Shown here: positions 2,422 through 51,131 of the stretch, piece by piece
Layout of the letters: each line of letters opens with the position of its first letter
Position numbering within the stretch: position 1 is the first letter of the stretch
Assembly (NCBI RefSeq): GCF_037392515.1
Contig: NC_090280.1
Location: forward strand, 29,455,118-29,519,117
Source of the DNA: Haliotis asinina
Taxonomy: Eukaryota; Mollusca; Gastropoda; Lepetellida; Haliotidae
Direction: 5' to 3'
DNA: 64,000 nucleotides
Position numbers and translations under genes: made by a program
The notes under the pieces: model-generated
Told to the model about the DNA's origin: nothing
The model's database searches: none
What the model saw: only the letters and a program-made list of their open reading frames with translations

Positions 2422-2655
2422 ATGTTCCTAGTGGTTCTGTGCACTTTGTTGCTGTGGGGATCGGCGTTTTCTGACACAACCGTCACAATCTACAACGAGT
2501 GGCTCTCCCAGGGTGGGCATGTTCACAATGAATTTGCAAGATGGAGCAAAATTAATGGACTGACACAAGAAAACCTAATACCCAAATGTAAATCTATCGG
2601 GACAGCTGCTGGGCGTTGGCTGAACAGAGACGAGAGTGACAACCTCTTTCCTAAT
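2422..2655 (+). CDS. GH86-like secreted glycoside hydrolase, gene A, exon 1 of 3
   Basis: Encodes residues 1-78. The ATG at 2422 is chosen because it opens a classical signal peptide (MFLVVLCTLLLWGSAFS, cleavage expected before DTT), and paralogues B and D start at the equivalent codon. The open frame extends upstream only to a TTG. The mature part starts TVTIYNEWLSQGG and ends in GRWLNRD..NLFPN. The exon ends on a codon boundary (phase 0) at N followed by the donor GTATGT. A TTTAAA at 2375-2380 lies 42-47 bp before the ATG, as in the paralogues, and may be a TATA-like element. Exon 2 follows after a ~1.1-kb intron that holds SINEs. Confidence 0.85.
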
Positions 2656-2813
2656 GTATGTATGACATGCAAAAGATATACTGGTAAATGATTTCATATT
2701 TTGATTATTGAATGATGTCACTGGACAAAGAGCCATTCATGTAATATTGCAGCCAGCGCCGGTTGTTATTGTATAGGGCCGGCAGTTCCAAATATCAGCT
2801 AGCCCAAATGACT

Positions 2814-3079
2814 TTCAGTAAATGATCTACCCGTGAAAGTCCCGGGGTAGAATAGGCCTTCAGCAACCCATGCTTGCCATAAAAGGTGACTAACGGGATC
2901 GGGTGGTCAGGCTCCCTGACTTGGTTCACACATGTCATTGGTTCCCAATTGTGCAGATCAGTGCTCATGTTGTTGATCACTGGATTGTCTGGGCCAGACT
3001 CGATTATTTACAGACAGCCGCCATATAGCTGGAATATTGCTGAGTGCTGCGTAAAACTCACTCATTCAGTAAATTATCT
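2814..3079 (+). mobile_element. SINE-III, complete copy with target-site duplication (gene A intron 1)
   Basis: The body (~2829-3064) starts ACCCGTGAAAGTCCCGGGGT, contains the central block GACTCGATTATTTACAGAC.GCCGCCATATAGCTGG, and ends GCGTAAAACTCACTCA. It is flanked by 15-bp direct repeats TTCAGTAAATGATCT (2814-2828) and TTCAGTAAATTATCT (3065-3079), with one mismatch. This marks a retrotransposed unit of about 236 bp. I see no convincing tRNA A/B boxes in this family. Its last ~45 bp resemble the ACTC-LINE tail. Confidence 0.85.
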
Positions 3080-3672: not shown

Positions 3673-3731
3673 CGACGTTGTCAACGGAAAAACTAACACA
3701 CCCATACTGTAATGTATCATTTCATTTTCAG

Positions 3732-3876
3732 TGGCCAGAAAGCCCAAGTCAACCTGGATACCCAGACCCCACCTATCTCCAGGACCATGCACTTCAGTCA
3801 AAGACTTGGGCATCGTATATGCAACAACTAAATGGCTATGGGAGTGCCATCGACAACATGGTCTGGAACATAAGAG
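3732..3876 (+). CDS. GH86-like glycoside hydrolase, gene A, exon 2 of 3
   Basis: Encodes residues 79-126 plus one base of the next codon: WPESPSQPGYPDPTYLQ ... NGYG.AIDNMVWNIR. The acceptor is TTTTCAG before TGG, and the donor leaves 'g' then GTGTCT (phase 1). All four paralogues have exactly 145 nt here and the same boundary residues (WP.SP at the start, G spanning the junction). This supports both splice sites despite the small size. Confidence 0.85.
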
Positions 3877-4415: not shown

Positions 4416-4439
4416 TATGCACGCTTTTGTTTATGGTTA

Positions 4440-4968: not shown

Positions 4969-4975
4969 TTACAGC

Positions 4976-6192: not shown

Positions 6193-7649
6193 GTCTGAAC
6201 TGGCCCGACTGGATGGATAAGTCACATCATCAAGGTCAGTTCCCAAACAACGTTGACGCTGCATCAGAATTTGTGTCGCTAATGGTTCAGAGTGCTAATA
6301 ACTACACAGGAGGACGCCTTCCTTACACATTTGAAGTCATCAATGAACCTGATTGGGTCGAAAAGATTATTGACCAACAAACAAATATAGATTTCCACAA
6401 GGTCGTTGCCCAAAAGCTGAAATCACGATTTGGAATGAAAGTTGCCGGACCAACATACACCAGTATGGCCATGCGACAAGCAGATGAAAATAACTTCAGC
6501 TATTGGAAAAGAACTGCGAAGTTTATGGACATGACGCTTGATCATTTGGACTTTTTCTCTTTCCATTCCTACAGTTATCTGCGGGTGTCAGGTGGAAACT
6601 TTTCACGTTTTGGCATCAACGAAGCTCGTCTGGTCGCTTCTATTGACATGGTGGAGAATTACTCCCATCTCAAGAAAGGCAAAAATGTTCCGTTAGTTGT
6701 CAGTGAATTTGGTAGAGGAAATGTTATCGGACTTCCCGACGGTTTCGAAAATGGAACGATTGACTTTGAGACCATTTATCAACCCAACGGTTTCATGTTT
6801 ACTTTCCTGAACTTGAGGGAGTTTATCGAAATAGTTCTAGTTTTTCTTCACGGAAATGTTCAATATCCGGGTCATCCCACTCTAAGGAATTCCTTATTTA
6901 CAAAAGATGGTCGTGCTCTTAACATGACGAAATATTTCACGTTTTGGACAAACTTCGTTTATGACCAAATGTTTATTCGTGTTTCAAGTCAATACAATGG
7001 ACAAGAAAGAGTCGTTGCACCCCTGGCCCTAGCAAACCCTCTCACCAAAGAGGTGGTAGTTCTTCTTCACAACTATGACAGAAAATGGCAAAATGTACTA
7101 CTGGACTTCTCCAACAGCTGGATCAATCCTTCCACGGGCGAACAAACATGCGTTCTTTTTGAAAATGGTAATCCGGCAATTCATTCTAACTATCATTTCA
7201 ACATATCGAAAGATCATGGCTCCGTGGGTCTGCCTGGATCATCAACATGCTTCTACACGTTCAAAACCAACTACAACTTTGACAGAATGCCCACGTGCAA
7301 CCAAAGCACATATTATGGCAAAGACATGGTCATCCCTATCAACAATGGGCATGCTCAGACAACCATCCGTCTTCCAAGTACTGGTTACAGTTCTGCGCAT
7401 CTTAGGGTGGGAGTTAGCAGAGACTTGAATGCTGACGCACGGCCCAAGGCAGTTGTGTTCAATGGCCAGATGTTGTCATCAAGTTACATGCTCTTTGATT
7501 CTATGAAGACCGACGGGAAAACAAAATGGAACGTGTGGGTGTTCATGGTCCCTGAATCACAGGTCCGTGCAACAAACAACGTCAACATGACCTTTGATGG
7601 CGACGGTGGTCATGTGTCATCTGTTGGCCTCATTGTCGGCAAAATATAG
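6193..7649 (+). CDS. GH86-like secreted glycoside hydrolase, gene A, exon 3 of 3 (catalytic exon)
   Basis: Encodes residues 127-611 and the stop TAG. The acceptor is TTTTTTACAG after a long pyrimidine tract. The barrel holds FEVINEPDW with the predicted acid/base Glu178, HLDFFSFHSYSY on a barrel strand, and VVSEFG with the predicted nucleophile Glu298. The ~120-residue spacing fits clan GH-A. A beta-sandwich follows (VVLLHNYD..., ETCV and STCFYTF, whose Cys may pair), then a C-terminal sandwich ending MTFDGDGGHVSSVGL, similar to what I recall at the end of GH86 agarases. Many NxS/T sites and the signal peptide indicate secretion. The likely role is hydrolysis of red-algal galactans in the gut; the family is recalled, not computed. 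A GH39/GH30-like enzyme is the main alternative. The whole protein is 611 residues with no defect seen. Confidence 0.85.
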
Positions 7650-16061: not shown

Positions 16062-16206
16062 TGGCCTCAAAGCCACAGTCACCATGGCTACCCAGACCCT
16101 ACATATCTCCAGGACCACGCGCTCCAGTCAAAAACGTGGTCATGGTATATGCAACAACTCAGTAACTATGGGAACAACATCGCTAACATTGTCTGGAACA
16201 TAGAAG
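16062..16206 (+). CDS. GH86-like glycoside hydrolase, gene B, exon 2 of 3
   Basis: Encodes residues 77-124 plus one base: WPQSHSHHGYPDPTYLQ ... NYGNNIANIVWNIE. The acceptor follows a strong T run (TTTTTTTTCAG) and the donor is g then GTATGA. Length (145 nt) and phase 1 match the paralogues. The frame is open but contains no ATG-initiated stretch long enough to stand out alone. Confidence 0.83.
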
Positions 16207-20391: not shown

Positions 20392-21848
20392 GTAGACACT
20401 GGCCCGCCTGGATAGATAAGTCTCATCATCATGGCGGATTCCCAAACAATGTTGACGCTGCATCAGAGTTTGTATCGCTGATGGTTCAGAGTGCCAAGGA
20501 CTACACAGGCGGTCGCCTTCCCCACATATTTGAGGTCATCAATGAACCTGACTGGTACGAAGATGTTATTGACCCACAAACGAATATAGACTTTCACAGA
20601 GCCGTGGCCGACAAGCTGAAATCACGATTTGGAATGGAAGTTGCCGGACCGTCGTACACTAGTATGGCATTACGACAAGCAGATGAAAATAACTTCAGCT
20701 CCTGGAAAAGAACTGCAAAGTTTCTGGACATGTCTCTTGATCACTTGGACTTTTTCTCGTTCCATTCCTACAACTATCTGCATATCTCAGGTGGAAGCCA
20801 TACCAACTCTGGCATCAACGAAGCTCGTCTGGTTGCTTCTCTTGACATGGTGGAGAATTATTCCCATATCAAGAAAGGAAAGAACGTTCAGCTAATTAAC
20901 ACTGAATTTGGATTAGGCGTGTCAGGAGTTCCAGCCGGTTTTGAAAATGGACTAATAGACTTTCAGACCATTTATCAATCAAACGGCTTCATGTTTACTT
21001 TCCTTAACCTGAGAGAGTTTATCGACAGAGTTACCGTATTTCTCTTTTCGAATGAGCAATATCCAGGTCATCCTTCCCTTCGGAATTCCTTATTTACAAT
21101 GCAAGGACAACCTCGTGAGATGACAAAATTCTTCACGTTATGGAAAAATTTTATTTATGACCACAGATTCCTCCGTATCTCCAGTCAATACAATGGACAG
21201 GAGAGAGTAGTTGCATCACTCGCCCTTGCAAATCCTCACACAAAAGAGATGATGGTTCTACTCCACAACTATGGAAGTAAATTCGAGAATGTTAAACTGG
21301 ACTTTCCCAACAACTGGCTTAACCCTTCCTCTGGTGAAGAAACATGCGTTCTGCTCGACAATGGCAATCCATCTATTCATGCCAATTACCATTTCGACAG
21401 GTCTAAGCTTCATGGCACCGTCGATCTGCCTGGATCGTCAACCTGCTTCTACAAGTTTAAAACTAACTACAACTTTAATGGAATACGCACGGATAACGAG
21501 AACACATACTATGGCAAGAAAATGATCATCCCTATCAGCAACGGACATGCACAGACAACCATCGATCTACCCAGCTCCGGATACCATTCATCGTATCTTA
21601 GAGTAGGAATTAGCCGCGACAAGAATGCCAATGCAAAACCCAAGACCGTTGTCTTCAATGGCCACACGTTATCTTCGAGTTACATGTTGTTTGATGCCAC
21701 AAAGGTTAACAGGAAAACAAAGTGGAACGTGTGGGTCTTCATGGTTCCGGCATCACAGGTCCACACGTCAAATACAGTGACCATGACATTTGATGGAAAC
21801 GGTGGTCACGTGACATCCGTCGCACTGGTTGCTGGCAAGCTTCATTAG
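20392..21848 (+). CDS. GH86-like secreted glycoside hydrolase, gene B, exon 3 of 3 (catalytic exon)
   Basis: Encodes residues 125-609 and the stop TAG; same length as in gene A (1457 nt). The acceptor is GTTCCAG, and the first codons read R-H-W-P-A-W in place of L-N/S-W-P-D-W in the other copies. Catalytic Glu176 lies in FEVINEPDW and Glu296 in INTEFG. HLDFFSFHSYNYL, the ETCV/STCFYKF pair and the C-terminal MTFDGNGGHVTSVAL all persist. No stop or shift is seen. Predicted role as for gene A: secreted hydrolysis of an algal galactan. An upstream ATG at 20361 lies in SINE/intron sequence and is not used in this model. Alternative: a diverged clan GH-A enzyme with another substrate. Confidence 0.85.
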
Positions 21849-28096: not shown

Positions 28097-28241
28097 TGGC
28101 CACAAAGTCCTAGTCGGCCGGAATACCCAGATCCAGCTTACCTCCAGGACCCTGGACGTCAGCAAGTGACATTTGCGACCTACATGAACCAACTGAATGG
28201 CTACGGGAATAACATCTCCAAGATGGTCTGGAACATACAAG
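28097..28241 (+). CDS. GH86-like glycoside hydrolase, gene C, exon 2 of 3
   Basis: Open and 145 nt long: WPQSPSRPEYPDPAYLQDPGRQQVTF ... NNISKMVWNIQ then one base. The donor site is GCAAGT, not GT, as in D. In frame and phase this is the only site matching A and B, so a GC-AG intron is proposed. Compared with D it differs by DP for DH and QVTF for QAIF. Whether it is still used depends on an alternative first exon, because exon 1 is ruined. Confidence 0.7.
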
Positions 28242-29187: not shown

Positions 29188-29209
29188 CCCCCCCCCCCCC
29201 CCCCCCCCC
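29188..29209 (+). repeat. Poly(C) tract, 22 nt
   Basis: Lies inside a ~60-bp segment (TATAAAGGAAC...CCCAATACTTCTACTGGTGACTGCATTT) that also occurs at ~26945-27000, upstream of exon 1 of C, with a shorter C run (10). One copy therefore moved within the C block. Confidence 0.9.
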
Positions 29210-29550
29210 AATACTTCTACTGGTGACTGCATTTTTTTGTTAGCTTTATAGGTCGCCATTATTAATATTGCTGTGTTTGGGTGAAGTCTTGAGAAACCAG
29301 GGCGCCAGTATGTGTGATTTTAGGTTAAAGCACAATTAACTCGCAACCAGCTGCAGGAATATGTGTGAGTCTGAGCAGTTTGTTCCTTACTGAGGGCAGA
29401 GAACATTGGTTTTGATCCTGAATGGAACTCAGCAAAACGGTACTGTAGTTTACTGACAAAACTAAATTTTAAATATCCCTTATAGTACACAGAAGGTAGT
29501 TTAACATGGAATGAATGCTTGATTTGCTTGTCTCTGGAAATTATTTACAG

Positions 29551-31022
29551 GTTTAAACTGGCCAGATTGGATGAATAAGTCAAAACATCATGGCAAATTC
29601 CCCAATAATGTTGATGCAGCATCAGAGTTCGTGTCACTGATGGTCCAGGGTTGCAAGGACTTCACATTAGGACGAATTCCATATGTATTTGAAGTCATCA
29701 ATGAACCTGATTGGGCGGAAAACATCATTGACCCACAAACGAATATAGAATTCAACAGGGCAGTTGCTGACAAACTCAGATCCAGATATGGAATGAAAGT
29801 TGCTGGACCCACATACACAAGTATGGCCTTACGTCAAGCAGACGAAGATAACTTCACATATTGGAAGAGAACTGCTGAGTTTCTGGATATGTCTCTTGAC
29901 CACTTGGACTTTTTCGGTTTCCATTCCTATAACTATCTCCGTATATCAACTGCTGGAAACTATTCTTACTTTGGCATAAATGAAGCTCGTCTAGTTGCAT
30001 CTCTGGACATGGTGGAAAATTACTCTTTCATCAAGAAAGGAAAAAATGTTCAATTAGTTAACACTGAATTTGGATGCGGTAACATTTTCGGAGTCAGTCC
30101 TAATTTTGAAAATGGACTGATAGACTTTGAAACCATTTATCAACCAAACGGCTTCATGTTTACCTTCCTTAATATGAGAGAGTTTATAGACAGAGTTACC
30201 GTCTTCCTGTCGTCAAATGGACAATACCCTGGTCATCCTTCCCTGAGGTATTCCTTATTTACTCTTGATGGCCACCCCCTTCAACCAACCAAATTCTTCA
30301 GGTTTTGGCAAAACTTTACTAATGACCAAAAATTTCTTCGAGTCTCAAGTCAGTATAATGGGCAGGAGAGAATGGTTGCACCTCTTGTCCTTGCAAACCC
30401 TCTCACCAAGGAGATGGTAGTTCTTCTCCACAACTATGGTAGTAAATTTGAGAATGTTAAACTATACTTTCCAAACAACTGGCTCATCCCTTCCACGGGT
30501 GAAGAAACATGCGTTCTGCTCGAAAATGGTAATCCAGCTTTTCATGACAATTATCATTTTAACATATCGAAGCTTCATGGCACTGTTGGTCTGCCCGGAT
30601 CTTCAACCTGCTTCTACAAGTTCAAAACCAACTACAACTTTGCTGGACTACGCACGAACAACGAGACCACATACTACGGCAAGGACATGATCATACCAAT
30701 CAATAACGGACATGCACAGACAACCATACATCTACCCAGCTCTGAATACCATATCGCTCACCTTAGAGTGGGAGTGAGCAGAGGCCTCAATGCGGATGCA
30801 AAACCGCATGCAGTTGAGTTCAATGGTCAGACTTTGTCTTCAGGTTACACCCTGTTTGACTCTATGAAGAATGATGATAGCTTGCGTAAAACAACATGGA
30901 ACGTTTTGGAATTCATGGTTCCAGAATCACAGGTCTACACAACCAACACCGTCAGCATGACCTTTAATGGAGATGGTGGTCACGTGACATCTGTCGCCCT
31001 CGTTGTTGGAAAACTTCAGTAG
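29551..31022 (+). CDS. GH86-like glycoside hydrolase, gene C, exon 3 of 3 (open although exon 1 is dead)
   Basis: 1472 nt, open throughout, ending TAG. The acceptor is TTATTTACAG. FEVINEPDW (acid/base Glu) and VNTEFG (nucleophile) are intact, as are HLDFFGFHSYNYL, the ETCV/STCFYKF pair and the terminal MTFNGDGGHVTSVAL. C and D share a one-residue insertion before YFGINEA and a longer NDDSLRKTTWN loop relative to A and B, hence 489 rather than 484 residues after the junction Gly. By hand count about 19 residues differ from D. At most of these C keeps the residue found in A and B. Either C lost exon 1 very recently or it is expressed from another 5' end. Confidence 0.7.
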
Positions 31023-33064: not shown

Positions 33065-36000
33065 TCAAAATTCAGTGATGAAATCAATTTCTTTTAAAAA
33101 GCCAAGAATTAAATGAGAACTTACGGTGTTAAAAAGGTCCTTAATTGTTTTTACATTGAAATATTTGTCCCTTATGATGGAGAATTCAACACAGTCACAA
33201 GGGATGCAAAACGGAGGATCCTCACCTTTCAGTAGGTATGAATGAGTATATCTAGTGTGGCCAATGCGACATCGTCGTAAAATAACCTCTTCAAATCTGG
33301 ACTGACAACCCAAGTAAGTATAACCAATGTAAGGTTTTATCTCATGTAATTTATTTATTCCCAATTGGGTGTCCCACTTCTTCTGCATCAGATCACGGAT
33401 ATAAGATCTAATGTTAGCTTTATAATCAGTGTATGGAATAAGAAGTGGTGTCACAGATTTGTTGAGTGCCGCCTTGGCAGCAAGATCGGCCATTGCGTTA
33501 CCAGAAATGCCCACGTGGCTGGGTAACCAACAGAAGACGATGTCGTATTGGCCAGTAGCAAGAGTATTATACAATTCAATAATTTCAATTAAAAGTGGAT
33601 GTTTACAAGAGATATTTTTAATCGCCTGAAGGCAAGAAAGAGAATCGGAATAGATTATATATTGTTTACGTTTAGGGTGTCTTTGAATATATTTAAGAGC
33701 TGTTAATATGGCGTTAGCTTCAGCTGTAAAAATAGAACTATTATCGGGTAATCTAGAAGATATTGTTCTGGATCCATTGACAGTGGCACAAGCCACTGCG
33801 CCACCGTCCTTGGATCCATCTGTAAATAAGGGTTTGCAATTGCTATATTTATGTTTTAATTGATGATATTCTTGTTTATATTGTAAGTCATTAGTTTCTG
33901 ATATTTTAAATGTAGTTAATTCGGTGCCCAAGAGGTGGAACAAGAGAAGATTTTTTGTTATACAAATCCTCATAAAGGGGATTGAACACACAGTTAAAGG
34001 CAGGGTTAGATTCATTAGAATATAATTTAGTAATATATTGTAAAGACAGTTTTATACGACGTTGAGTAAGAGATGGTTCATCGGCCTCAACGTAGAGACT
34101 ATCAATAGGTGACGTTCTGAAAGACCCAAGACAAAGTCTTAAGCCTTGATGGTGGACGGAGTCAAGAAGTTTAAGATTGCTTTTGCAGGCTCCACCATAT
34201 ACGATGGAGCCATAATCAAGTTTCGAACGCACGAGTGATCGATATAGATGTAAGAGGGTTGCTTGATCCCCTCCCCACTTTGAGTTGGAAACAACTTTCA
34301 ACAAGTCAACAACAAGCCTTCAGGCATTTAGGTTTAAGGGACTTAATATGAGGCAGAAATGTTAAGTGGGAGTCAAAGATTAGGCCCAAGAACTTGGCCT
34401 CCTTTACAACTTTGATGGGAGTGCCATCTAGAGATAGTTCAGGGTCTTTATGTGGCTTATATTTTCTGCAAAAATGTATACAATTAGTTTTCGATTTAGA
34501 AAATTTAAAGCCGTTTTCAAGACACCATTTATTTATTTTGTTTAAACACAACTGCAGTTCAATAGTATGCATGTTTTTCCCACGACAAGAAATATTAAAA
34601 TCATCCACAAATAACGATCCATCTATTGAATCGTTTAAAACTTTTGATAAACTATTTATCTTTATGCTAAAAAGTGTGACAGACAGCATACTGCCTTGTG
34701 GAACACCCTGATCCTGAGTGTAATGATCAGACAGGGTAGAACCCACTCGAACTTGAAACTGTCTATCATTTAAAAAGTTGGCTATAAATTGAGGTAAACG
34801 ATCTCGCAAGCCAAAGTCATGTAAATCTCTTAAAATACCATATTTCCAGGTTGTGTCATATGCTTTTTCGAGATCAAAAAAGATAGACACAGCATATTGT
34901 TTATTAATTAGTACATTTTTAACAAATGATTCTAAACGCACTAGGTGATCAACAGTACTTCTGTTTTTGCGGAAACCACACTGTATATCTGTTATGAGAT
35001 TATTTGTTTCCAAGTACCAAACAAGTCGATTATTTATCATGCGTTCCATGGTCTTGCAAACACAGCTAGTTAATGAAATCGGACGATAATTAGATGGATC
35101 CGTATGATCACGTCCAGGTTTAGGTATTGGTACTACTATGGCGTCACGCCATGAAGGAGGAAAGTTACCCGATGTCCAAATACCATCAAAAATATTTAGG
35201 AGAGTTTCCTGACAGGATTCTGGTAAATGTTTCAGGAGTTGATAATGTATGTTATCAGCTCCTGTAGCAGTATCATGAGCTTGATCAAATGCAGTATGGA
35301 GTTCATGAATAGAAAACGTTTCATTATAATCTTCCCCATTATCGGAATTGAAATTAATAGTTTTCTTTTCTTCTTGTTTTTGATATTGCTGGAATTTTGG
35401 TACATAATTTGAAGAGGAAGAATGTTTAGCAAGGGTTTCACCCAGTTTATTAGCAATATCTGATTTATCAGTAAGCAATTGATCTCCATGTTTAAGATGA
35501 TGGACAGTAGATTTAGTACCTTTACCTTTAATTTTCTGGACCATGTTCCACACCTTGGACATGGGTGTCCGAGAGTTTATTTTAGATACATAATTTTGCC
35601 AAGATTGGCGTTTGTTCTGTTTAAAAGTACGCCGTGCTTTAGCATTTACAATTTTAAATTTATTTAAATTATGCACCATAGGATGGCGACGGAAATAATG
35701 TTTTGCTTTTTTCCTTGCCTTCCTAGCTTGTTTGCCCTCATCATTAAACCATGGTTTTCGAATATGGGGAACTGCAGAGGAATTTGGTATACACTCATCA
35801 GCTATAGAGTTCAATTCATCAGAAAAGCATTTAATAGCATCAAGAACGTCAATAAAACGTTCAGGTTTAAGTTTTTCAGCACACAGTGTTTCATATAAAG
35901 CCCAGTTAGCCTTTTTAAAATTCCGCCTTGATGATGGAGGAACATCAGTGGGAGTTACAGATTTTAGTACAGTAGGAAAATGGTCACTTCCACAGAGGTC

Positions 36001-36600
36001 ATCGTGGACTGACCATTCAAATTCATTTATTAGTTCTGAATTTGTGAGTGGGAAGTCAAGAGCAGTATAAGTCCCTGTACCGGGGTGTAAATATGTGTTG
36101 GAACCATCATTATGAATACATAAATCATTGTCAGAACAAAAGTCCTCCAACAATTTACCTTTAGTGTTTGTAGTTACACTACCCCAGAGTGGGTTGTGCC
36201 CATTTAAGTCTCCCATTATAATACAGGGCTTCGGGCGCTGATCATATAGAGCTTGAAGATCAGTTTTGGCAAACGTCGTCGACGGAGAAATATAAAGAGA
36301 GCATAGCGTAAACGCTACATGTAAAGTAATTCTCACTGCAACAGCCTGCATATTAGTATTAAGTGAAACAGGGCTTTGAATAACGTTTTGTTTGACTAGA
36401 ATGGATGATCCGCCAGTAGCCCGATCACCCGGAGGTGCAAAACAGTGATATGCATTAAAATGACGAAGGTTAAATGTATCTGTTTGTTTTAAATATGTCT
36501 CTTGGAGACATATCGCTGAAGGTATAAAATCTTGGACTAATAGTTGTAATTCATGTAAATTAGTCCTTAATCCTCTGCAGTTCCACTGTACAATATTAGT
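33065..36600 (-). pseudogene. ACTC-LINE ORF2: endonuclease, RT, RNase H
   Basis: In order from ~36600: APE endonuclease (IVQWNCRGLRTN, ICLQETYL, MGDLNGHNPLWGS, CGSDHFP); RT with SWRDAIVVPIPKPG, FFDLEKAYDTTW, QGVPQGSMLS and active site FVDD; thumb; RNase H with LFTDGSKDGG, AEANAIL, YSDSLSCLQAI and LPSHVGISGNAMADLAA. The C-terminal C-x2-C...H...C motif is gutted: CIPC joins directly to DCVEF, losing about 11 residues present in the 56.8-kb copy. The frame shifts near 34305 and again near 33910-34010, so the protein is split in three. The frame is open back into ORF1 without an ATG before 36351. Confidence 0.9.
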
Positions 36601-36608
36601 GGAATAAA

Positions 36609-37875
36609 CTATCTTTTGGGGGGATTTATTGGGGATCTACCCCGCACTCTTTTAGAGGGCGACAAGCTATGTGCCCTAGAATGGACGTTTTCAGAAACGT
36701 CTATGTCTTCAAGAGACCCGTATTTATTGAACAATTGAATTTTGTTCTGTGACCCTTTAGGAGCTCTGCCACTTTGTTGTTTTGAAGCATCGGGCTTTGG
36801 CTTCGATTTATTTTTCACAGTTTGTTGACTATCAGCTGTGGATTGAGACTTTGAGTGTGACTGAGATGATGATTTGTGATCAGAAGACGACTTTGAGGTA
36901 CTAGGAAGTGATTCCTCAGTCTGAGATGACGTAGTAGGGGATAAAAGCTGTGGAGAATCGCAGTTGACCCAAGTCAAGGTAGTTTGGCAGCCTGTAGATG
37001 ATTTTGGTATTTTAGATCTGGACTCAGATGGTGGTTTTGCGACTGTAGCGTAACTTTCTGTAAGGTCAGATCTTTTTTGCTTCAGAAAAAGAGATGTTTT
37101 GGGTATATTTTATTCTGTTTATTTCCATTTGCTCTTTCCATATTGGGCACTGTTTTGACGAAGATGAATGGTCGCCTGAGCAGTTGGTGCATTTTCTAAA
37201 GTCACTGTCACAATTTTCTGTTGTGTGTGTCTTCTCACCACAGTGAGCACACACAACAGACAATGTGCAGGTAGATACACCGTGTCCATATTTCTGGCAT
37301 TTAAAACACCTGAGCGGGTTGGGGATGTATGTATCGACCTGAATATTACAGTAGCCTGCCTTCACTGATTTGGGTGCATTTGGAGAGGAAAACGTAAACA
37401 GATACGTATTGGTTTTGATGGTTTCGTTGTTTCTTCGGGTTGAAAAGCGCTTGACGTGGAGTACACCTTGATCCTTCATTTCTGATCTTATATCAAGTTC
37501 CGACATATCGTCAAACAATCGGTCTCGATCCCTAACGATACCTTTGCTTGTGTTCGGGGTTTTGTGAGCAGACACTGTGACGGGAATGCCCACGAAAGAT
37601 TTGATGTTCATCAGGTTGGTGGATTGTTGTTTTTTACTACATTCAACTAATAGTGCACCCGAACGTAATCGTCTAATATTTTTCACATCTCCAGCAATAC
37701 CTTGAATACCTTTGGAGACAGCAAAGGGGTTAAGCTTTAAAGGTGTTTTGTCAGGAGTCTCAATCACAACGAAACGCGGCCAATACTCAATCAATGCAGA
37801 CGGTCTATGGTCAGTATCATAAGGGTCAGTTTCAAGTAAACGTTTTGTTTTCTTGGGTGGAATTTCATAAGCCAT
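36609..37875 (-). pseudogene. ACTC-LINE ORF1: CCHC zinc-knuckle nucleic-acid-binding protein
   Basis: Start chosen at MAYEIPPKKTKRLLETDPYD (37875). An upstream ATG at 37992 lies in 5' UTR-like sequence. An RRM-like middle (YWPRFVVIETPD ... GALLVECSKKQQS) is followed by three knuckles near 37130-37310 (CFKCQKYGHGVSTC, CAHCGEKTHTTENC, CTNCSGDHSSSSKQC). A Ser/Gln-rich tail ends SPINPPKR at 36609. The frame is lost near 37066, where a short deletion relative to the 60.8-kb copy removes about 11 nt after SEAKK. ORF2 lies in the -1 frame and overlaps the ORF1 stop. Confidence 0.87.
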
Positions 37876-38487
37876 GGTTAGTTTAATTTGGTTCATCATC
37901 CGAGCTCCCCACCCACCACGGAGTATCACAAGGACAATGCTAAAGCAAGCGGGCCTCCAGCCTGCAGCACCAAGGATACCCGGATGATACACTCTAGTAG
38001 AAGAATTATAAGAAATTAATCTACCAGATTGGCCCTTGAGCCATCGCCTTCTGGCACAAGACTCTAGGCAAAGTTCATATGATCATAATGCACAATACTT
38101 AAATGTACAGATTAACAATAGTGCCAAGACCAAACTTCAAAATAATTCCAAATCAGATTTCTGCAATGACACACATGTAGTCTATGCACAGGGCTTGGCA
38201 TGACCAGCCGATTGGTTGAATCGGGCCCATTCAACCACCCGTCTAGGTGAAGTAAGGGCCGAAGTGGTGTGTTGGGCAAATGGAACACAGTTAAAAGCCC
38301 AACTGCCCTCAACCACCAGGATCCCGTCCTCCACCGACACGGGACGCAACCCACGGCAAACAGGTTGCCCAATTTAGTCGCCTCTTACGACAAGCAATGG
38401 GGTGCTGTGGACGGGAGAAGAGCACTTAGCGTTACCCAGCACCCACCACGAGGAGGTGGCTCTTCATGGGTGCCCTATTGTATATGA

Positions 38488-40742: not shown

Positions 40743-40887
40743 TGGCCACAAAGTCCTAGTCGGCCGGATTACCCAGATCCAGCTTACCTCCAGGACCATG
40801 GACGTCAGCAAGCGATATTTGCGACCTACATGAACCAACTGAATGGCTACGGGAATAACATCTCTAACATGGTCTGGACCTTACACG
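40743..40887 (+). CDS. GH86-like glycoside hydrolase, gene D, exon 2 of 3
   Basis: 145 nt: WPQSPSRPDYPDPAYLQDHGRQQAIF ... NNISNMVWTLH plus one base. The acceptor is TTTTTCCTTCAG. The donor is g then GCAAGTG, a GC-AG intron as in C. The nearest GT lies four bases downstream and would give the wrong phase for exon 3. If the frame is read through without splicing it hits TGA within three codons. Confidence 0.85.
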
Positions 40888-41059
40888 GCAAGTGAATCAA
40901 ACGTTTGAAGAGGGATATAATATAGGAACATATATGGATAGAAAGAAGACAGAGCAGTCAGTGTCCTAGACGGAATGAATGTTTAGTTTTTTCTTACTTT
41001 TCTAATACCTTCATCAATTTTCTAATACCTTCATCAATCATTTGTTTCAAGGACCGTTC

Positions 41060-41432
41060 TTGTATCCTAACGCATGGTGATATGCCTTCAGTTCCAGGTG
41101 ATCACATGACCTCTAGTATGGTGATCTACATTTAGCTGTTGGTGATCTATAGTCTGTTTTTACGTTGTATTGTCTGAATAGTGATATCGGTTTTGACGTT
41201 TCATGCTAGTTTTATTTCTTATTGTGATGTTCTAGTTGTTTTACTGTCCTTTGTCGACAGGTTTTTACCATATACATAAATACTTTTTTCAAGAATGTTC
41301 TCGTCACGATATGGCTGCAATACTGCCGATGTTAAATATTAACTCACTCACTCACTCACTCCAGGTGATCAATAGCCTGCTTTTATGTTACGTGTTGCCC
41401 CAATAATAGTTTTACTAGTTTTAACTGTACAT
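41060..41432 (+). mobile_element. ACTC-LINE 3' ends, two adjacent fragments (gene D intron 2)
   Basis: The first reads 'ctagtatggtgatctacatttagctgttggtgatctatagtctg' to CACGATATGGCTGCAATACTGCCGATG ... AACTCACTCACTCACTC at ~41284-41361. Then 'caggtgatcaatagcctgcttttatgtt' begins a second ~60-bp internal fragment of the same 3' UTR right behind the tail. Confidence 0.7.
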
Positions 41433-42908
41433 GTTGGTTTTTATTCACATGGTGATGGTCCATGCTAGCCATTCTCGAAACGTCCGTAGCCCTACGAACA
41501 TCTTAAGCCCATTCTTACCACATAGGCTATCATCAAAGTTAAGAATAGACCGATCCAGTCTGTCAATCAAAACTGGCGCATGCGTCGATTTCGGCCAATC
41601 AGCAGGCCGGGTGTGCATCGTGGATTTGTTAGACTAATTTCCGGAGTTAATCGAAGCCTCCGAAGCGATGTGCTTCGAATTATGCCATTCACACTCGTAG
41701 TATCTGTTATACATTACTGCAATTTAATGAGTGCCTTCAACAAAACCATTTTGGTGAAGACAAACAAAATTTAGGTGGATCAAGGAATGCGATAGGCCTC
41801 ACGATCAGTTAATTGTCGGCACCATCGTTCTCGAAACCTACGTCTGCTCGAAGTTGAGAATTTGCATGAATTTCCACACTTTCGAACGTTTGCAAAACCA
41901 TTACCATTTGTATGACAACAACTAGCAGCTTTAGGCTTCGCAAGTGTTATAACACGGATAAATTTTGTAAGTAAAAAATTTGTTTTTGCATAACGTTGTA
42001 GTCAATACTGGGCATTGTTTTGGTAGACCATAAAACTGAAACGAGACAGGCGAGAAGGCCGTGACACAATGTAAACAAATCTGACAGCGATCTGATTTCG
42101 GTTAAGGAAGACCTAAATGGCACAATTTGTTACATTGTTACAGAACAATGTGATGTATATGGTTGCCTTCGATCTTACATATTCTTAAATTTGTCACACA
42201 TTTTATGATGTTGTCAAGTTTCAAGAGCACAATCTGAAGGGCTTCTCTGCAGTATACTATCCGTCAATAGCTCAAAATATTTGAGGAGTAATATTTTTAA
42301 TTCAAAGGGACAGTGTAAGCAGATGCCTATCACGCAATATCCAAAATATGAAAAGCATTGAGTGTCTATAAGACCATGCCTTAAATATTTCGGAATTTCC
42401 AAAAGGAGATGTGGATCGAGACGAAAGCTATGCCAGAAGAATAGTGACTTTCTGGAATATTGGAGGGAATTAAATACAATTGTATTTCTTAACGAAGAGA
42501 ATATTGTTTAATTTTTGTTACAACATAAATTTGTTCATGCAGGAGAGGTACATTGGTACACTTTAGGAATAATACAGTCATTAAAACTGATAGCAAGATA
42601 TCTTTTAAGGATCTTACATCCTTTAGTAAACGTACATAGAAAGGTAGTAAAATAAATAATAATATAACCGGTTATAAACAATAATTCCTAACTGACTGAG
42701 ATATTAGATTCGTGTGGTTTGGAAGCAGAACCAGGCATAATTAGACAACACTATAGACATGTCATGGCAGAGCAATAGCTTGGCACTAACTTGGCAAATG
42801 CTCCGTTTTGGCCACACCCTGGTCAGGCACATATGTGTGATTACACAAATGTCAGTTTGTGATCAAATCCATATGTAGTTCAGTATATGGGTATTTCAAA
42901 TGCAATAT
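41433..42908 (+). other. Gene D intron 2, unassigned 1.5 kb with promoter-like motifs
   Basis: No coding frame supported. Bases 41576-41585 read GCGCATGCGT (NRF1-type site) and 41593-41603 read GGCCAATCAGC (NF-Y/CCAAT). This is an unusually GC-rich patch inside AT-rich intron, so it may be a promoter or the 5' end of an unrecognised repeat. CTCGAAACRTMCG-like direct repeats occur near 41475 and 41830. Confidence 0.4.
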
Positions 42909-44552
42909 TCCCATACTTTGATAAGAGGGTAGGATTCTTTATGGATAACAACTGCTTTATTACATATGACGCGACGTTTCGGTATGGATCCTTATACCGC
43001 TGTGAAGCAAGGGTGGAGTAATACATCACAGAACAGACTTAAAAACATGGACAGGGATAAAGCAATAACAAAATGTAGGTATGAATAAAAGGCGGGGGAT
43101 TAACAACAACAACAATTGGTGGTAGTAATGATGTGACTATGAGAAGAAGCCAATAGTAGCTGTAGCCAAATCCACGGCCTGCCCATGGGCTCCCCTCTGT
43201 CCCCATTACTCACAGAAATCTATATGACCTCCTTTGAAAAGCAAGCCCTCAACACCTCGACCATCAAGCCTACTTGCTGGTACAGAAAGGTTGACGACAC
43301 CTTTGTCATCCTACGTCAAGACCAAGACCCAGCTACCCTCCTGCAACACCTCAACCAACAGCACCCCCGTGTCCAGTTCACCTTAGAAACAGAAACAAAT
43401 GGTCAGCTTCCCTTTCTAGATGTCCTTGTAACCAGAGCCCCAGACAACAAGATAGAAACCAGTGTCTACAGAAAGCCAACCCACTCTGACCAATACATTC
43501 ATTTCGACTCCAACCATCCTCTGAAAACCCAAACTGGAATCATCTCTACCCTCACCAGACGGGCCATAAACCTCTCCCCCATAAGTCCCAGTGGAGAAAT
43601 AGAACACCTCCGACGTGTTTTCACCAAGTTCAACCACTACCCACCAAAGCTAGTTGTTAAAATGATCAGATCCACGCTCCACCCAACAAGAAAAGAGGCC
43701 ACCAACAAACCTGAACCAGCACCTATCCGCATCGCTTTGCCCTTCATTGGAAAAACCTCCAACCACATCAGCCGTCTCCTAAAGCAACAAGCCGGCATTG
43801 AAACCTACTTTACCAGCTCTACATCACTGAAAACCCTGCTCAAAGCGAATGGCAGGAACATCTCTAAACAACATCAGCTACCGACAGGTGTCGTCTACAA
43901 AATCAACTGCGACTGTGGGTGAATATGTAGGTGAAACCTCACGGCCCATAAACATCAGAATCAAAGAACACTTATCATCCACAACCAAATCAGATCGGAA
44001 ATCTGCTAAATCCGACCACATCATCAAATGTCCCAATCACTGCATAATTTGGGACAATGTAGAGATATTATCCAAAAAACCACAAGGATTTCACCCAAAG
44101 AAAACTGGCAGAAGCAGTTCAAATCAGCAGACACAAGCCCTCAATCAACAGAGATCAGGGATATCTCATCCCAACTGCATAACATGAACTGATAAAAATA
44201 ACAGATTAGAGCTCACCAGCCATCATTACTAATTACCCTATCAGCCAAGTATACTTTGTTACAGCTACAGCTACTATTGGCTTCCTCTCATTGCCACATC
44301 ATTACTACCACCAATTGTTGTTGTTGTTAATCCCCCGCCTTTCATTCATACCTACATGTTGTTATTGCTTTATCCCTGTCCATGTATATAAGTCTGTTCT
44401 GTGATGTATTACTCCACCCTTGCTTGACCATACGGATCCATACCGCAACGTCGCGTCATATGTAATAAAGAAGTTGTTATCCATAAAGAATCATACCCTC
44501 TTTTCACTCACCAGCTTCTAATAATGCCAGTCAAACAAATCCCATACTTTGA
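42909..44552 (+). mobile_element. Penelope-like element, 5'-truncated, with inverted arms and target-site duplication
   Basis: Bounded by perfect 13-bp direct repeats TCCCATACTTTGA (42909-42921 and 44540-44552). Inside lie two ~240-bp arms in inverted orientation (~42923-43166 and ~44264-44502). Between them is the C-terminal part of a Penelope-type RT (GLPMGSPLSPLL, then YRKVDDTF at the active site, QLPFLDVLV, VYRKPTHSDQY) and a GIY-YIG endonuclease region (YVGETSRPINIRIKEH). It lacks the N-terminal half and is a broken fossil, fairly young judging from arm similarity and clean flanking repeats. It lies in gene D intron 2. Confidence 0.87.
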
Positions 44553-44940
44553 CACGACTTTCTGTCGCCCTGGCACCTGTTCTTTGAGCAGTCCACCTAA
44601 ACCGCTCTCGCACACACATGTGGGCGTTGTAGGTCTTAGAGGTTATTATAGAATCCTTCAAATCCGGTCCTGGCACACAGCCTTTGAACCACCCAAGCCA
44701 GAATGTGTCTCCCTATAAGAGCTGTAGAGTACCAATTGATAGGCTTAGGATACTTGAGTGGAGGAAGGTAAAAATTATCATAACCCACTGTCCTGAAATC
44801 AGGTTGTATATGCATTGCATGCAAACACTTTAGCCGCCGTTATGTGTAATTAAAAAAACCCTATTTTTTAAAACGATATTAATTTCTTTCTCTTATTTTA
44901 AGTTTTAAGTCAGAGAGTTAATATTTAGCGTCGCATCGTA

Positions 44941-47140
44941 GGATGTAGGACTCCAATGTTTTAGTTTTAATCAATCTTTATTCCGTACTAACGAGGCAAA
45001 AAGCCTATAGTACATTTGTATACACGACATTTACAACTGAGCAGCAGTAAAACACGTGTGGGATATTTAGAAATTACAAATTTAAATTAGATTTTCTTTG
45101 TATGAATGCAATATAGATATACACTGACAGGTTCTGTAATTCAATAATTCTGTAATTCACTTTTCATAACATTGTCATTTCTATTTCATTTGGATGCTAG
45201 ATATTTCTTTCTAAGGTTTCCATAGGCGGAAAATATGAAAAGAAAATGGTATTCATCTTCTACAACATTATCGTTACAGAGGTTACAAAGTCTATGGTTA
45301 CGAGGAATATTAATATAACGACCAGTTTCAACAAATAACTCGTGCGATGAGCAGCGAAAACGAGATAAAGGCACACGGAATTTCCTTACAGTGATGTTTG
45401 ATGAATACTATTCTTTGCATAGTTCAGATTTCCAATGTTTATAGTACAGACATTTCGAGGAAAGACAGATTGATTCAAGACATTTTTGTTGACAGATGTC
45501 TTTCATTCTTTGGGTCAATGACGTAACGAAATAGTTTTCTGGCTGGGTGTTTTGATTATTCCAAACATAACCATATCCCGTTTTGAATAAAAATTCCCTT
45601 ACATTAGTCACCCAGTTTCTTTTCCCATTTTTGTCATATATCATCATCATATTATAACATTTCTTAGGAAATCTATGACTTGTTAACAAACGTAACCAGT
45701 ACTTTATAACTCTGATAGAAGAATATATGCATCACGGAAATCTGCCACACTCGCCGTACACCATGTGTTAGATTTCAAGCCGAGGTATTTTTTGCATGCA
45801 TATAAATGGATATTTTCTATAGATTCATAATTTTTCAGTCCCCATATTTCTGATCCATGTAACAGTATTGGGCTTACTTAAGTATCAAATAATTTGAAGA
45901 ATGTTTTGTACGATAATTCCCCCAAAATGTTGAGATTTATAATTATGTTTATCCAAATCTTAAGGGCTTGCACAGATGCCTGTTTTGTGTGGTTAGTCCA
46001 CGAAAGATGGTTGGAAAATAGACGTCAACATATTTATATAAGTTTTTAGTTTCTATTTTGTCGCCTTTTGTAAGTTTATTTCTCCCTTTTTGAATGTTTT
46101 CCACCATTGCCATTCTCCTATTAACTGCAAAATTCCATTCATCAGATTAGATTTCAAGTTGATCAATTTGTTTCTGTAGGTCACTTATGGTGCTAGAAAA
46201 TAAGACAATGTCATCAGCGAAGAGTAACAGGAATAATTGGATTAAGTCGGGATGTAACTGGATCCGATTGTACAGTTATCACATAATTGCACAGCTAAAT
46301 CATTGATAATAAATGTAAGCAGAAAGGTTCTTAAATTACAGCCTTGTCTGACACCTAAATGGCAAATAACAGTTTCTTAGACTTCGTTATTGTTTCTCGC
46401 ACACACTTTGACATTTTGATATATACTACTTAGAAGTTTATTAATTTTTTGGCTAAGTCCACGAGTTTGTAAAAGGCCCCATAACTTATTTCTCTTTCTA
46501 GAATCGAATGACTTAGGAAAATAAAAAAAAGGGCATAGCATTTTCCACCTCTTGGATTCAAATATTTTTGGACAATGGATTGAAGTATGAATATATTAGC
46601 AGTTGTGATGTAGCCCTGTCTATGATATATGTAAAAAGGTTTCCGAACATACTAAGGAGTGTAATTCCACAATAAGCATTTGGATTGTTTACATCACCAT
46701 GTTTATGTATGGGAACAATAATACCAGTTGGCCCAGATGAAGGAAAACAACCAGTTTCTAGTATAACATAATATATCAGACGAATGTTTAAAAAATTCAG
46801 GGATAACATTGTCCATCCCTGATGGTTTTTAGCACTTGTGGTTCTGTCTATCTATGTGTGCATCTAAAATGTTACAGGCATAATCCAGGTTTGCGTCAGT
46901 ATTTCCAAAGTGTGTTGGTGTCTTACTATTTGCAACAGTATCGTTTATTTCCGGCTTAAAAAAAGATTTTCAAAATATGTATACCAATTTTCAATTCCTA
47001 TTGTATTGTTTGGGTTGTTTTTCGAGTTATGTTGTTTTAATTCCGAACAGAATATTTTCGAATCGTTTATATTTGTTTCTAAGTATACCCTTTTCTGATC
47101 AAAACATTCTTTCTCCTTCCGTTTACAGGTCTTAGTGTAC
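44941..47140 (-). mobile_element. CR1/L2-like LINE, copy 1 (5'-truncated, decayed)
   Basis: Minus-strand order: endonuclease-RT linker (SKIFCSELKQHNSKNNPNNTIGIENWYTYFENLF, ~46950-47100), RT start (GCFPSSGPTGIIVPIHKHGDVNNPNAY, ~46700-46770), degraded palm, then LTSHRFPKKCYNMM ... and a C-terminal zinc motif (HELFVETGRYINIPRNHRLCNLCNDNVVEDEYHFLF, ~45230-45340). The 3' UTR includes CTATAGGCTTTTTGCC and ends GGAATAAAGATTGATTAAAAC at ~44945. Multiple breaks; inactive. It has no RNase H, unlike the ACTC-LINE. Confidence 0.8.
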
Positions 47141-47149
47141 TTAGTGTAT

Positions 47150-49307
47150 TGACATACATACAGACAGACAGACATATAGTTTATTTGTATATGTGGCCTT
47201 AGGCCAATAGTACATCTGTGAAAAATCTTAACATTGCATATATGCGCTACCTGTAATTTCGTATGTTGCTGTCACATGATAAATCTATAGACCCTCATTT
47301 GTAATTTACATTACTTTCTCTGACCCTAAGTATGTGGTACAACACAAGCGCTACCTTAAACAATAGGGCCGTATCTTCTGTGTGGATCAGCATACAGAAT
47401 TTTTGTCTCGATGGTTGGTTATGAAAGAATTGAGGCTGATATTTTTCTCTTAATTTCTGAATATTGCGGGCATATAAGTAGTACATGGTGCTCGTCCTCT
47501 TGCAATAGATTACAGAATGGACACTGTACTATTGTATTTACAGTTTTGGCTAATCGCACGGCTTGGACATTAAAATTGTGGGCATTACATCTACATTTAG
47601 TGCGCGCAAGCTTAAGTTGATTTAATCTTTGAAAAGTAATTTTCTGTATTAATACAATATTTATATGCTGTATAAAAGTTTACAGACGTAGATGAAGTTA
47701 TTTCATTGTACCAGTATTGTTGATAAATATCTTTGCAACTCGGCTTGAATAGTTCGATGAAATATTCTGCATTGCTTACATTTTGAGCAAGCCATACATT
47801 TCCAAAGCCATGACTGAAAAGAATAGTTCTGACGAAAGAAACCCAATTAGTATCTCCTGTATCATCTTATGTTTTAAGCATTTCATAACTACGTCGTGAA
47901 TATCGTGAAATTGGTTCTCTCATCATTCTAGGCAAGATGATGTAACCCGACAGCGGGCGTTAATAAATAGTTTAAAACGTCCACATTCAGCTAAAATAAC
48001 TTTGTACGCGGTTCTGTAACCAACACGTAACAGGGAACTTACAGAACTTTGAATGTACTTTTTCAATATTCATATGTATCCTAGTGCCCCATATTTCAGA
48101 ACCGTACAGCAAAATTGGTTGACCTTTCCCATCAAACAGTTTAAAACTTGCGTTTAAAACTTGCGGTAGTTCTTTGCATTTACATATGAATTTCTTTATG
48201 ACATGTAGGACTCGTTCGGCTTGCATAGATAATGTTTCACAGGCTCTGGAAAATGTATTTCTATAAGAAAAATATGATACCTAAATATTTATCATATGAT
48301 ACCATCTCCAATGTTTGGCCGTTGAGGTACCATTTTTCACTATTGGACATTTTACCTCCATTTTTGAAAACCATTACTTTAGTTTTACCCATATTTATGT
48401 CGAGGCCCAATTTCAGACAATATTCATTTAGAGTATCTATCTTACATTGTAACTGGACAACAGAATCAGCAAGGATCACGACATCATCTGCAAATAGCAG
48501 CACTTCAAGATCTCTGATATGTTCGTTAATAAGTAAACCTCTCGTATCATTTGATAACAGTTCCTTAACAAGTTCCTCGACATGTAACAAGAAAAGAACC
48601 GGTGATAGAATGCAACCTTGCCTGACTCCCGCATATGTATCAAATACGTCACTCATTGGAAGTTTACTAATTCTGACAGATGCTCTTAAGTTGGTGTACA
48701 TATTACGTAGAAGACTTTGGAGTTTACCATGTATTCCTGACTGTAGTAGAACATATGACAGTTTCGTTCTCTTAACAGAATCAAACGCTCTCTTAAAGTC
48801 TACGAAAAGGTAATACATTTCCCCCCTTTCTTCTGTAGGTGTTTATGGATAATACTATTAAGAGTCAATAAGTGGTTCATAGTTGAATATTCTTCTCGAA
48901 ATCCTGCTTGGCACTCTAATAGACGTTCGCGTGTAGACACCCAAAACTTAATGCGATTATCTTATACAGTGGTAAATATCTTATTTAGTGTATTCAGTAG
49001 TGCAATGCCTCTATAACTGTTTGGGTCACTACTTTCTCCCGACTTATGCAGAGGTACTATCAGTCCTACATTCCAGGCATCTGGGAAAACACTGGGATCT
49101 AGAACTCGATTAAACAGCCTATTCATAAGAGGAAGCAGTAAAGACATACATTCTGTAAAGAAAGTCGACTGGAAAACCATTTCTAGATCTGTGATAGCTT
49201 TCGAGGGATTCAGTTGTTTTCTGTTTTCAAAAAGCCTTTCATAATTTGCATCGTTTCTTTTTCATATAGTCACACTCACTATCAAACCATTTATTTCTAT
49301 TACTATT
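47150..49307 (-). mobile_element. CR1/L2-like LINE, copy 2 (5'-truncated)
   Basis: Minus-strand order: linker NRNKWFDSEC (~49290), RT start (FPDAWNVGLIVPLHKSGESSDPNSYRGIALLNTLNKIF, 48962-49180), RT palm (FVDFKRAFDSVKRTKL, GVRQGCILSPVLF, LLFADDVVILAD; open frame 48261-48818), thumb (QPILLYGSEIWGTRIH, ~48090), and zinc motif CPFCNLLQEDEHHVLLICPQYSEIKRK (~47450-47525). The 3' UTR has ATTGGCCTAAGGCCACATATAC and ends in (TCTG)n at ~47160. It lies head to tail with copy 1. Broken by several frameshifts. Confidence 0.82.
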
Positions 49308-49659
49308 GTTTAAATGTTTATATTGCTGTGTTCGCGTGCAAGAGTTACGAAACCAGGGCGTAAATATCTATGCTTTTATGTTTCAGCGATATAAACTCCT
49401 CAGACTCGCCAATATTTGCGCTGCTGCTTTGGTCCTCGGCCTAACGGCCATGGAATCAACCAGCCACGCGAATGTTGGTGAGATTGAGCAGGTTATTAGT
49501 TACAAAGTGCAAAGAATAGGCTTGGTTTGGACCCGGAATGGGACTCAACAAAGCGGTGCAGTAGTTTACTGAGAAAGTGAAATTTTAAATATGCCTTATA
49601 GTACACAGAGGGTAGTTTGATGTTTGATCTGCGTCTCTTAATCTCATAATTATTTACAG

Positions 49660-51131
49660 GTTTAAGCTGGCCAGATTGGATGAATAAGTCAAAACATCAT
49701 GACAAATTCCCCAACAATGTTGATGCAGCATCAGAGTTCGTGTCACTGATGGTCCACGGTTGCAAGGACTTCACATTAGGACGAATTCCATATGTATTTG
49801 AAGTCATCAATGAACCTGATTGGGCGGAAAACATCATTGACCCACAAACGAATATAGAATTCAACAGGGCAGTTGCTGACAAACTCAGATCCAGATATGG
49901 AATGAAAGTTGCTGGACCCACATACACAAGTATGGCCTTACGTCAAGCAGACGAAGATAACTTCACATATTGGAAGAGAACTGCTGAGTTTCTGGATATG
50001 TCTCTTGACCACTTGGACTTTTTTGGTTTCCATTCCTATAACTATCTCCGTATATCAAATGCTGGAAACTATTCTTACTTTGGCATAAATGAAGCTCGTC
50101 TAGTTGCATCTCTGGACATGGTAGAAAATTACTCTTTCATCAAGAAAGGAAAAAATGTTCAATTAGTTAACACTGAATTTGGATGCGGTAACATTTTCGG
50201 AGTCAGTCCTAATTTTGAAAATGGACTGATAGACTTTGAAACCATTTATCAACCAAACGGCTTCATGTTTACCTTCCTAAATATGAGAGAGTTTATAGAC
50301 AGAGTTACCGTCTTCCTGTCGTCAAATGGACAATACCCTGGTCATCCTTCCCTGAGGTATTCCTTATTTACTCTTGATGGCCATCCCCTTCAACCAACCA
50401 AATTCTTCAGGTTTTGGCAAAACTTTACTAATGACCAAAAATTTCTTCGAGTCTCAAGTCAGTATAATGAACAGGACAGAATGGTTGCACCTCTTGTCCT
50501 TGCAAACCCTCTCACCAAGGAGATGGTAGTTCTTCTCCACAAGTATGGTAGTAAATTTGAGAATGTTAAATTGGACTTTCCAAACAACTGGCTCATCCCT
50601 TCCACGGGTGAAGAAACATGCGTTCTGCTCGAAAATGGTAATCCAGCTTTTCATGACAATTATCATTTTAACATATCGAAGCTTCATGGCACTGTTGGTC
50701 TGGACGGGTCTTCAACCTGCTTCTACAAGTTCAAAACCAACTACAACTTTGCTGAACTACGCACGAACAACGAGACCACATACTACGGCAAGGACATGAT
50801 CATACCAGTCAATGACGGACATGCACAGACAACCATACACCTACCCAGCTCTGAATACCATACCGCTCACCTGAGAGTGGGAGTGAGCAGAGACCTCAAT
50901 GCGGATGCAAAACCGCATGCAGTGCAGTTCAATGGTCAGACTTTGTCTTTAGGTTACATGCTATTTGACTCTATGAAGAATGATGATAGCTTGCGTAAAA
51001 CAACATGGAACGTTTTGGAATTCATGGTTCCAGAATCACTGGTCAACACAACCAACACCGTCAGCATGACCTTTAATGGAGATGGTGGTCACGTGACATC
51101 TGTCGCCCTTGTTGTTGGAAAACTTCAGTAG
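49660..51131 (+). CDS. GH86-like secreted glycoside hydrolase, gene D, exon 3 of 3 (catalytic exon)
   Basis: Encodes residues 127-616 and the stop TAG; acceptor TTATTTACAG. Acid/base Glu178 in FEVINEPDW and nucleophile Glu299 in VNTEFG. HLDFFGFHSYNYL, the ETCV/STCFYKF pair and MTFNGDGGHVTSVAL are kept. Complete protein: 616 residues. Unusual changes at positions otherwise constant in A, B and C: NEQDR for NGQER, LLHKYG for LLHNYG, LDGSS for LPGSS, and NDGHA for NNGHA or SNGHA. These lie in or after the late barrel and in the sandwich domains, not at the catalytic Glu. D may be changing substrate, or constraint may be relaxed. It should work as a secreted gut carbohydrase like A. Confidence 0.85.

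Follow-up and report, generated by a model that had tools for sequence, protein, structure and literature searches.

Does an abalone make its own enzymes for digesting red seaweed? The question is raised by a 64,000-nucleotide stretch of the Haliotis asinina genome (assembly GCF_037392515.1, contig NC_090280.1, positions 29,455,118 to 29,519,117 of the forward strand; here called the window), in which a first-pass annotation had noticed a tandem cluster resembling agarases and porphyranases of glycoside hydrolase family 86 (GH86). We find that the abalone genes are an animal variant of GH86, a family with which marine bacteria attack red seaweed. Sequence comparison established three-exon animal genes with near-full-length homology to GH86, a retained pair of catalytic glutamates, purifying selection, and one broken copy, gene C. 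We put the probability at roughly two in three that these three intact copies and one pseudogene represent an abalone-encoded, GH86-type hydrolase, predicted to be secreted, that cuts beta-1,4 linkages of red-algal galactans in the gut.

Three intact genes and one pseudogene form a tandem array

Four GH86-type copies (A to D) lie head to tail on the + strand, from the ATG of A at position 2422 of the window to the stop codon of D at 51131. Their exons, with the scores of the exon-3 peptides against the Pfam domain BPA_C (PF18040), are as follows.

2422..2655, + strand: gene A exon 1, 234 nucleotides (nt); hydrophobic leader and start of the barrel; GT donor, phase 0
3732..3876, + strand: gene A exon 2, 145 nt; ends in phase 1
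6193..7649, + strand: gene A exon 3, 1457 nt; NEPDW and SEFG motifs, two beta-sandwich domains; PF18040 28.7 bits
14725..14952, + strand: gene B exon 1, 228 nt
16062..16206, + strand: gene B exon 2, 145 nt
20392..21848, + strand: gene B exon 3, 1457 nt; PF18040 38.9 bits
27270..27479, + strand: remnant of gene C exon 1; interrupted by an in-frame TAG, donor lost
28097..28241, + strand: gene C exon 2, 145 nt; open, GC donor for intron 2
29551..31022, + strand: gene C exon 3, 1472 nt; open, PF18040 42.5 bits
39672..39905, + strand: gene D exon 1, 234 nt
40743..40887, + strand: gene D exon 2, 145 nt; followed by intron 2 of 8772 nt, with a GC donor
49660..51131, + strand: gene D exon 3, 1472 nt; PF18040 47.8 bits

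A tblastn search of the window with 61 relatives (E ≤ 1e-3) gave twelve islands, matching three exons in each of the four copies with none left over. These islands and the exon models bear out both the span and the four same-strand paralogues of the first-pass annotation. The shared exon lengths and intron phases that it described were found for exon 2, which is identical in length throughout, nearly so for exons 1 and 3, and in phases 0 then 1 for the introns of A, B, and D; they do not extend to the broken exon 1 of C. Intron 1 ranges from 837 to 1109 nt among A, B, and D; intron 2 ranges from 1309 to 8772 nt over all four copies. Intron 2 of C (28242-29550) and of D (40888-49659) has a GC-AG splice pair, while A and B use a GT donor; the GC donor is a noncanonical donor inherited within one branch of the array.

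Genes A, B, and D are open from ATG to stop and encode proteins of 611, 609, and 616 amino acids. The spliced B protein is 100% identical to a database protein of H. asinina (P0001) that NCBI names beta-porphyranase A-like, and the A protein is 99.5% identical to P0017, an H. asinina representative of a 90%-identity cluster. These identities mark the window as nuclear DNA of the abalone. Full-length D has no near-identical database representative (best match 78.8%, or 95% to the 483-residue P0039). Nonsynonymous-to-synonymous ratios (dN/dS) among A, B, and D were 0.16 to 0.20 (dS 0.77 to 1.06), indicating that all three are under constraint.

Gene C is a pseudogene. Its exon 1 contains an in-frame TAG. 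Just 3′ of the exon 1 remnant, some 40 inserted bases bring in one or more additional in-frame stops, and GG replaces GT at the exon 1 donor; the reading frame is still open in exons 2 and 3. With exon 1 broken in these ways, the idea of four functional genes was rejected: the cluster has four copies, as first described, only three of them intact.

The encoded proteins have the homology, fold, and catalytic residues of GH86

Membership in GH86 had been proposed from motif and domain resemblance and is supported by four lines of evidence. All four exon-3 peptides exceeded the PF18040 cut-off of 26.2 bits. In searches of the PDB, exon 3 of gene B matched GH86 chains at 1e-15 to 4e-10, and a profile of 20 molluscan-type proteins matched 8h97 (2.4e-41), 5ta1 (3e-41), and 4aw7 (4.5e-28). 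With that profile, GH86 chains scored 101 to 145 bits; the next row was a beta-xylosidase (18.9 bits, 0.004), followed by a chain labelled GH39 at 0.042. A profile-profile comparison of the molluscan and bacterial alignments gave a probability of 100 and an E value of 7.6e-50 over 579 columns, nearly the full length, so that similarity to characterised GH86 proteins is significant along the protein and well above that to other families. Lastly, the predicted structure of the gene B protein has an eight-stranded (beta/alpha)8 barrel and then two beta-sandwich (immunoglobulin-like) domains, the GH86 layout; identity to the Bacteroides plebeius enzyme BpGH86A (PDB 4aw7) is about 18 to 20%.

Other families were examined with the same tools. 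Glyco_hydro_39 (PF01229, cut-off 26 bits) matched none of the four window peptides (E ≤ 10) and neither P0001 nor P0017, and its best score among eight molluscan-type proteins scanned was 25.6 bits. Cellulase (PF00150, cut-off 23.5 bits) likewise had no match in the window peptides, P0001, or P0017; it was passed by three of the eight relatives scanned (P0051, P0057, and P0060; 24.8 to 30.1 bits). We read these GH5-type matches of distant relatives as reflecting the barrel shared across the GH-A clan, of which the family appears to be a divergent member. A scan of the window peptides against NCBIfam gave no match. For the window genes, GH39, GH30, GH5, and GH51 were rejected on the evidence of Pfam, the PDB profile search, and the predicted fold, against which stand the Pfam labels of some distant relatives given below.

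Both catalytic glutamate motifs noted at first pass occur in all four copies: NEPDW in each, SEFG in A, and TEFG in B, C, and D. Conservation was counted in an alignment of 66 rows, comprising 46 of the 61 molluscan clusters (fragments and near-copies dropped) and 20 of the 120 bacterial proteins listed. E176 and E296 are present in 66/66 rows, as are N175, H249, and Y251, and E296 aligns with E322 of the Bacteroides uniformis enzyme BuGH86. By analogy with the family, Glu176 (in NEP) would be the acid/base and Glu296 (in TEFG) the nucleophile of a retaining, endo-acting enzyme. Two cysteines of the first beta-sandwich, Cys443 and Cys476, are found in every molluscan row (46/46); of the 20 bacterial rows, none has the first and two have the second. 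The pair probably forms a disulfide. The N termini of A, B, and D are hydrophobic (Kyte-Doolittle 11-mer maximum 2.3 to 3.1), in line with the signal peptides claimed earlier, and the three proteins are predicted to be secreted via this leader; the leader itself is a prediction.

The genes belong to a molluscan family separated from bacterial GH86

The cluster is an animal gene cluster, because its copies carry introns, parts of retrotransposons surround it, and relatives lie on Haliotis contigs as long as 106 Mb. This agrees with the intron-bearing animal version suspected at first pass. Two molluscan-seeded searches of 5.8 billion clustered proteins returned an identical set of 61 clusters. 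Four Haliotis species supplied 56 of them and Mytilus two; Pinctada and the chiton Liolophura gave one each, and the last, P0060, was counted as molluscan by tree placement and included in the bivalve group. H. asinina accounts for 17 of the 61 clusters, spread over contigs of three different sizes, with 12 on the 106-Mb contig. The family is thus not confined to abalones but present in other molluscs. The searches need shared 5-residue words, and distant relatives in other animals may escape them. A third search, seeded with molluscs and bacteria, returned 504 proteins, and all organism-named rows among the 120 listed were bacterial; the 61 molluscan clusters were also absent from those 120, so nothing follows from this search for other animals. 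The molluscan-seeded searches gave no bacterial cluster and hence no close bacterial donor. On viral contigs, seven stretches fit a pattern and none was a relative.

Phylogenies with bacterial GH86 were built from 71 rows (41 molluscan, namely 37 from the database and 4 from the window, plus 30 bacterial) and, more carefully, from 37 rows (23 molluscan and 14 bacterial). In both, the molluscan sequences form one side of a fully supported branch, on a stem of 3.35 and 3.48 changes per column, respectively. Chiton, bivalve, and two Haliotis branches split near the base; in the midpoint-rooted 71-row tree the second Haliotis branch is outermost (Shimodaira-Hasegawa-like approximate likelihood ratio test [SH-aLRT] 94), and in the careful 37-row tree the order of chiton, bivalve, and Haliotis is a polytomy. 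Given this basal split, the simplest reading is that at least one copy existed before the classes parted. An ancient transfer from bacteria is plausible, though an unrooted tree gives it no direction.

Several relatives deserve mention in their own right. P0051 and P0054-P0059 make up the second deep Haliotis branch, at 36 to 40% identity to B, and possibly act on a different substrate; P0051 and P0057, which pass the GH5 Pfam cut-off, belong to it. P0048, P0052, and P0053, from filter-feeding mussels and the pearl oyster, are of GH86 type with both catalytic glutamates. Among the bacteria, L018 comes from a contig with the label Clostridia MAG SZUA-378 yet hardly differs from the B. uniformis plasmid agarase (L004 and P0066; branch lengths up to about 0.002), reflecting either recent transfer or a mis-binned contig.

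A digestive role is the favored reading among several

In the mechanism that we propose, the leader would export the enzyme into the digestive fluid, where, with Glu176 as acid/base and Glu296 as nucleophile, it would cleave beta-1,4 bonds within agar or porphyran chains by a retaining mechanism; the chains would be shortened for absorption or for gut microbes. The history may have begun with a single capture, in an early mollusc, of a GH86-like gene from bacteria, continued with the gain of introns and of the mollusc-only cysteine pair, and ended with tandem expansion in abalones and gene conversion between C and D.

A number of observations weigh against this reading. Identity to bacterial and characterised GH86 proteins is only about 18 to 22%. 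PF18206 (Porphyrn_cat_1, the first beta-sandwich) was below cut-off or unmatched in 8/8 molluscan-type proteins and above it in 2/2 bacterial ones, and PF18040 was below cut-off in 4 of the 8 molluscan-type proteins scanned. Precomputed Pfam labels for the 61 relatives place PF18040 on 48 and PF18206 on 1, with the GH5-type PF00150 on 11 and the GH39 domain PF01229 on 6, neither of the last two on P0001 or P0017. The molluscan stem is long enough for a change of substrate, relatives in filter-feeding mussels and the pearl oyster fit poorly with a strictly macroalgal diet, and for one abalone, Haliotis discus hannai, brown algae are given as the main food (PMC6181387). The −2 subsite residues reported to separate agarase from porphyranase are T82/F77 and M396/S326 (PMC5849685). 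Our alignments disagree around T82, and position 396 in the B. uniformis sequence that we used is Glu and not Met; given this disagreement, assigning agarase or porphyranase specificity from these residues was dropped.

Some of the same facts would suit an active GH86-fold hydrolase acting on another, perhaps sulfated, galactan, from microalgal or bacterial slime or from a molluscan glycan. Members in the filter feeders Mytilus and Pinctada and in a chiton, the low identity combined with the very long stem, and split NCBI names (funoran endo-beta-hydrolase-like for three Haliotis cracherodii clusters, beta-porphyranase A-like or beta-agarase-like for others) point in that direction. The catalytic residues, the other invariant columns, and the predicted fold are nevertheless retained, and the family is most numerous in seaweed-grazing abalones (56/61 clusters, a count that four abalone genomes may inflate); we therefore consider another substrate possible but doubtful. 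That the family is a catalytically dead or regulatory relative, binding carbohydrate or serving a structural role, seems improbable: gene C is indeed decaying, but the five invariant residues, both catalytic glutamates among them, and the low dN/dS of the intact genes speak for activity. Bacterial contamination, or very recent transfer from gut bacteria, might be suspected from GH86 genes in Agaribacterium haliotis strain feces2 and Paraferrimonas haliotis, whose names point to abalones. The GH86 proteins of bacteria with such names (L032 and L040) lie with the bacteria, parted from the molluscs by a branch of SH-aLRT 100, the introns have conserved phases, retrotransposon parts are interspersed, and relatives sit on the very large contigs noted above, leaving this explanation a negligible chance; contamination was rejected on the introns, the retrotransposon parts, and the separate clade.

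Digestion of red-algal galactans by a secreted GH86-type enzyme is thus the reading that we retain. A wider version, for which we see even odds, is that molluscs hold their own GH86-type agarase/porphyranase lineage, derived from a single bacterial capture and predating the split of chitons, bivalves, and gastropods, and that abalones widened it into a multigene digestive kit for red galactans, making agar digestion at least partly the animal's own.

Exon 3 of genes C and D may record a recent conversion

Divergence between C and D is uneven, and its low values are not confined to exon 3. Exon 3 is 97.6% identical over 1472 bases with zero gaps, exon 2 93.8%, exon 1 88.6%, and the 5′ flank 91.4% (81 alignable bases); intron 1 is 81.0% identical, intron 2 78.8% over its final 200 bases, and the 3′ flank 81.2% and then 73.3%. 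Across exons 2 and 3, dS is 0.047 and dN/dS 0.49. The likely explanation is a recent gene-conversion tract over exon 3 involving the pseudogene, since selection on the protein poorly explains synonymous divergence far below intron divergence.

Retroelements surround and enter the array

Of eight other larger open frames scanned with Pfam, seven carry a match to reverse transcriptase, endonuclease, or RNase H; the frame at 37066-38082 (− strand), which adjoins a retroelement frame, had no Pfam match. The elements, including pieces resembling long interspersed nuclear elements (LINEs), are as follows.

23466-24356, + strand: LINE-like piece, domain matched
33065-38082, − strand: LINE-like copy or pieces; endonuclease, reverse-transcriptase, or RNase H domain matched in 33065-36636
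43143-44187, + strand: reverse-transcriptase fragment in intron 2 of D, below the Pfam cut-off
48261-48842, − strand: reverse-transcriptase fragment in intron 2 of D, Pfam match
53615-56954, + strand: LINE-like copy or pieces, domain matched in 53615-54607
57817-58589, − strand: LINE-like piece, domain matched in 57817-58176
60803-63487, + strand: LINE-like piece, by resemblance only

The two fragments within intron 2 of D help to explain its 8.8-kb length. The one at 43143-44187 is, we presume, Penelope-like.

Significance and comparison with known systems

The homology itself is already in public annotation, because NCBI names read beta-porphyranase A-like. In the open-licence subset of PubMed Central (titles and abstract openings, among the matches listed) we found no paper on an animal-encoded GH86, none with the phrase "porphyranase A-like," and none on funoranase; the name funoran endo-beta-hydrolase was met only as a database label. 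Agarose breakdown has been attributed predominantly to marine bacteria (PMC5849685), and in the excerpted text of a study of abalone digestion, red-algal polysaccharides are treated only via bacterial genomes (PMC5870069). Should the prediction for these genes hold, agarase or porphyranase would be produced by an animal lineage itself, and the respective parts of grazer and microbes in red-seaweed digestion would become directly testable. An old gene capture would have turned into a large tandem family, of use for abalone feed and as a source of enzymes that pass through the secretory pathway of an animal.

The proteins that NCBI names beta-porphyranase A-like in Haliotis, Mytilus, and Liolophura belong to the same family as the window genes, B being P0001 itself. 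Among characterised enzymes, the beta-porphyranase BpGH86A is encoded by a bacterial, intronless gene; the abalone protein is about 18 to 20% identical to it, and no confident counterpart of its L-galactose-6-sulfate (L6S) pocket residues was mapped in the abalone protein. The agarase Aga86A_Wa (PDB 8h97), also bacterial, is about 20% identical. Identity is again about 18 to 20% to the beta-agarase BuGH86 (PDB 5ta0, 5ta1, and 5ta5), from which the abalone protein differs in the Cys443/Cys476 pair, a molluscan feature rare in bacterial rows. BuGH86 acts on agarose, with a main product resembling neoagarobiose (PMC5849685). The closest parallel in kind is the host-encoded alginate lyase of H. 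discus hannai, likewise an animal-encoded enzyme for seaweed polysaccharide (PMC6181387), although it is a different enzyme whose substrate comes from brown algae.

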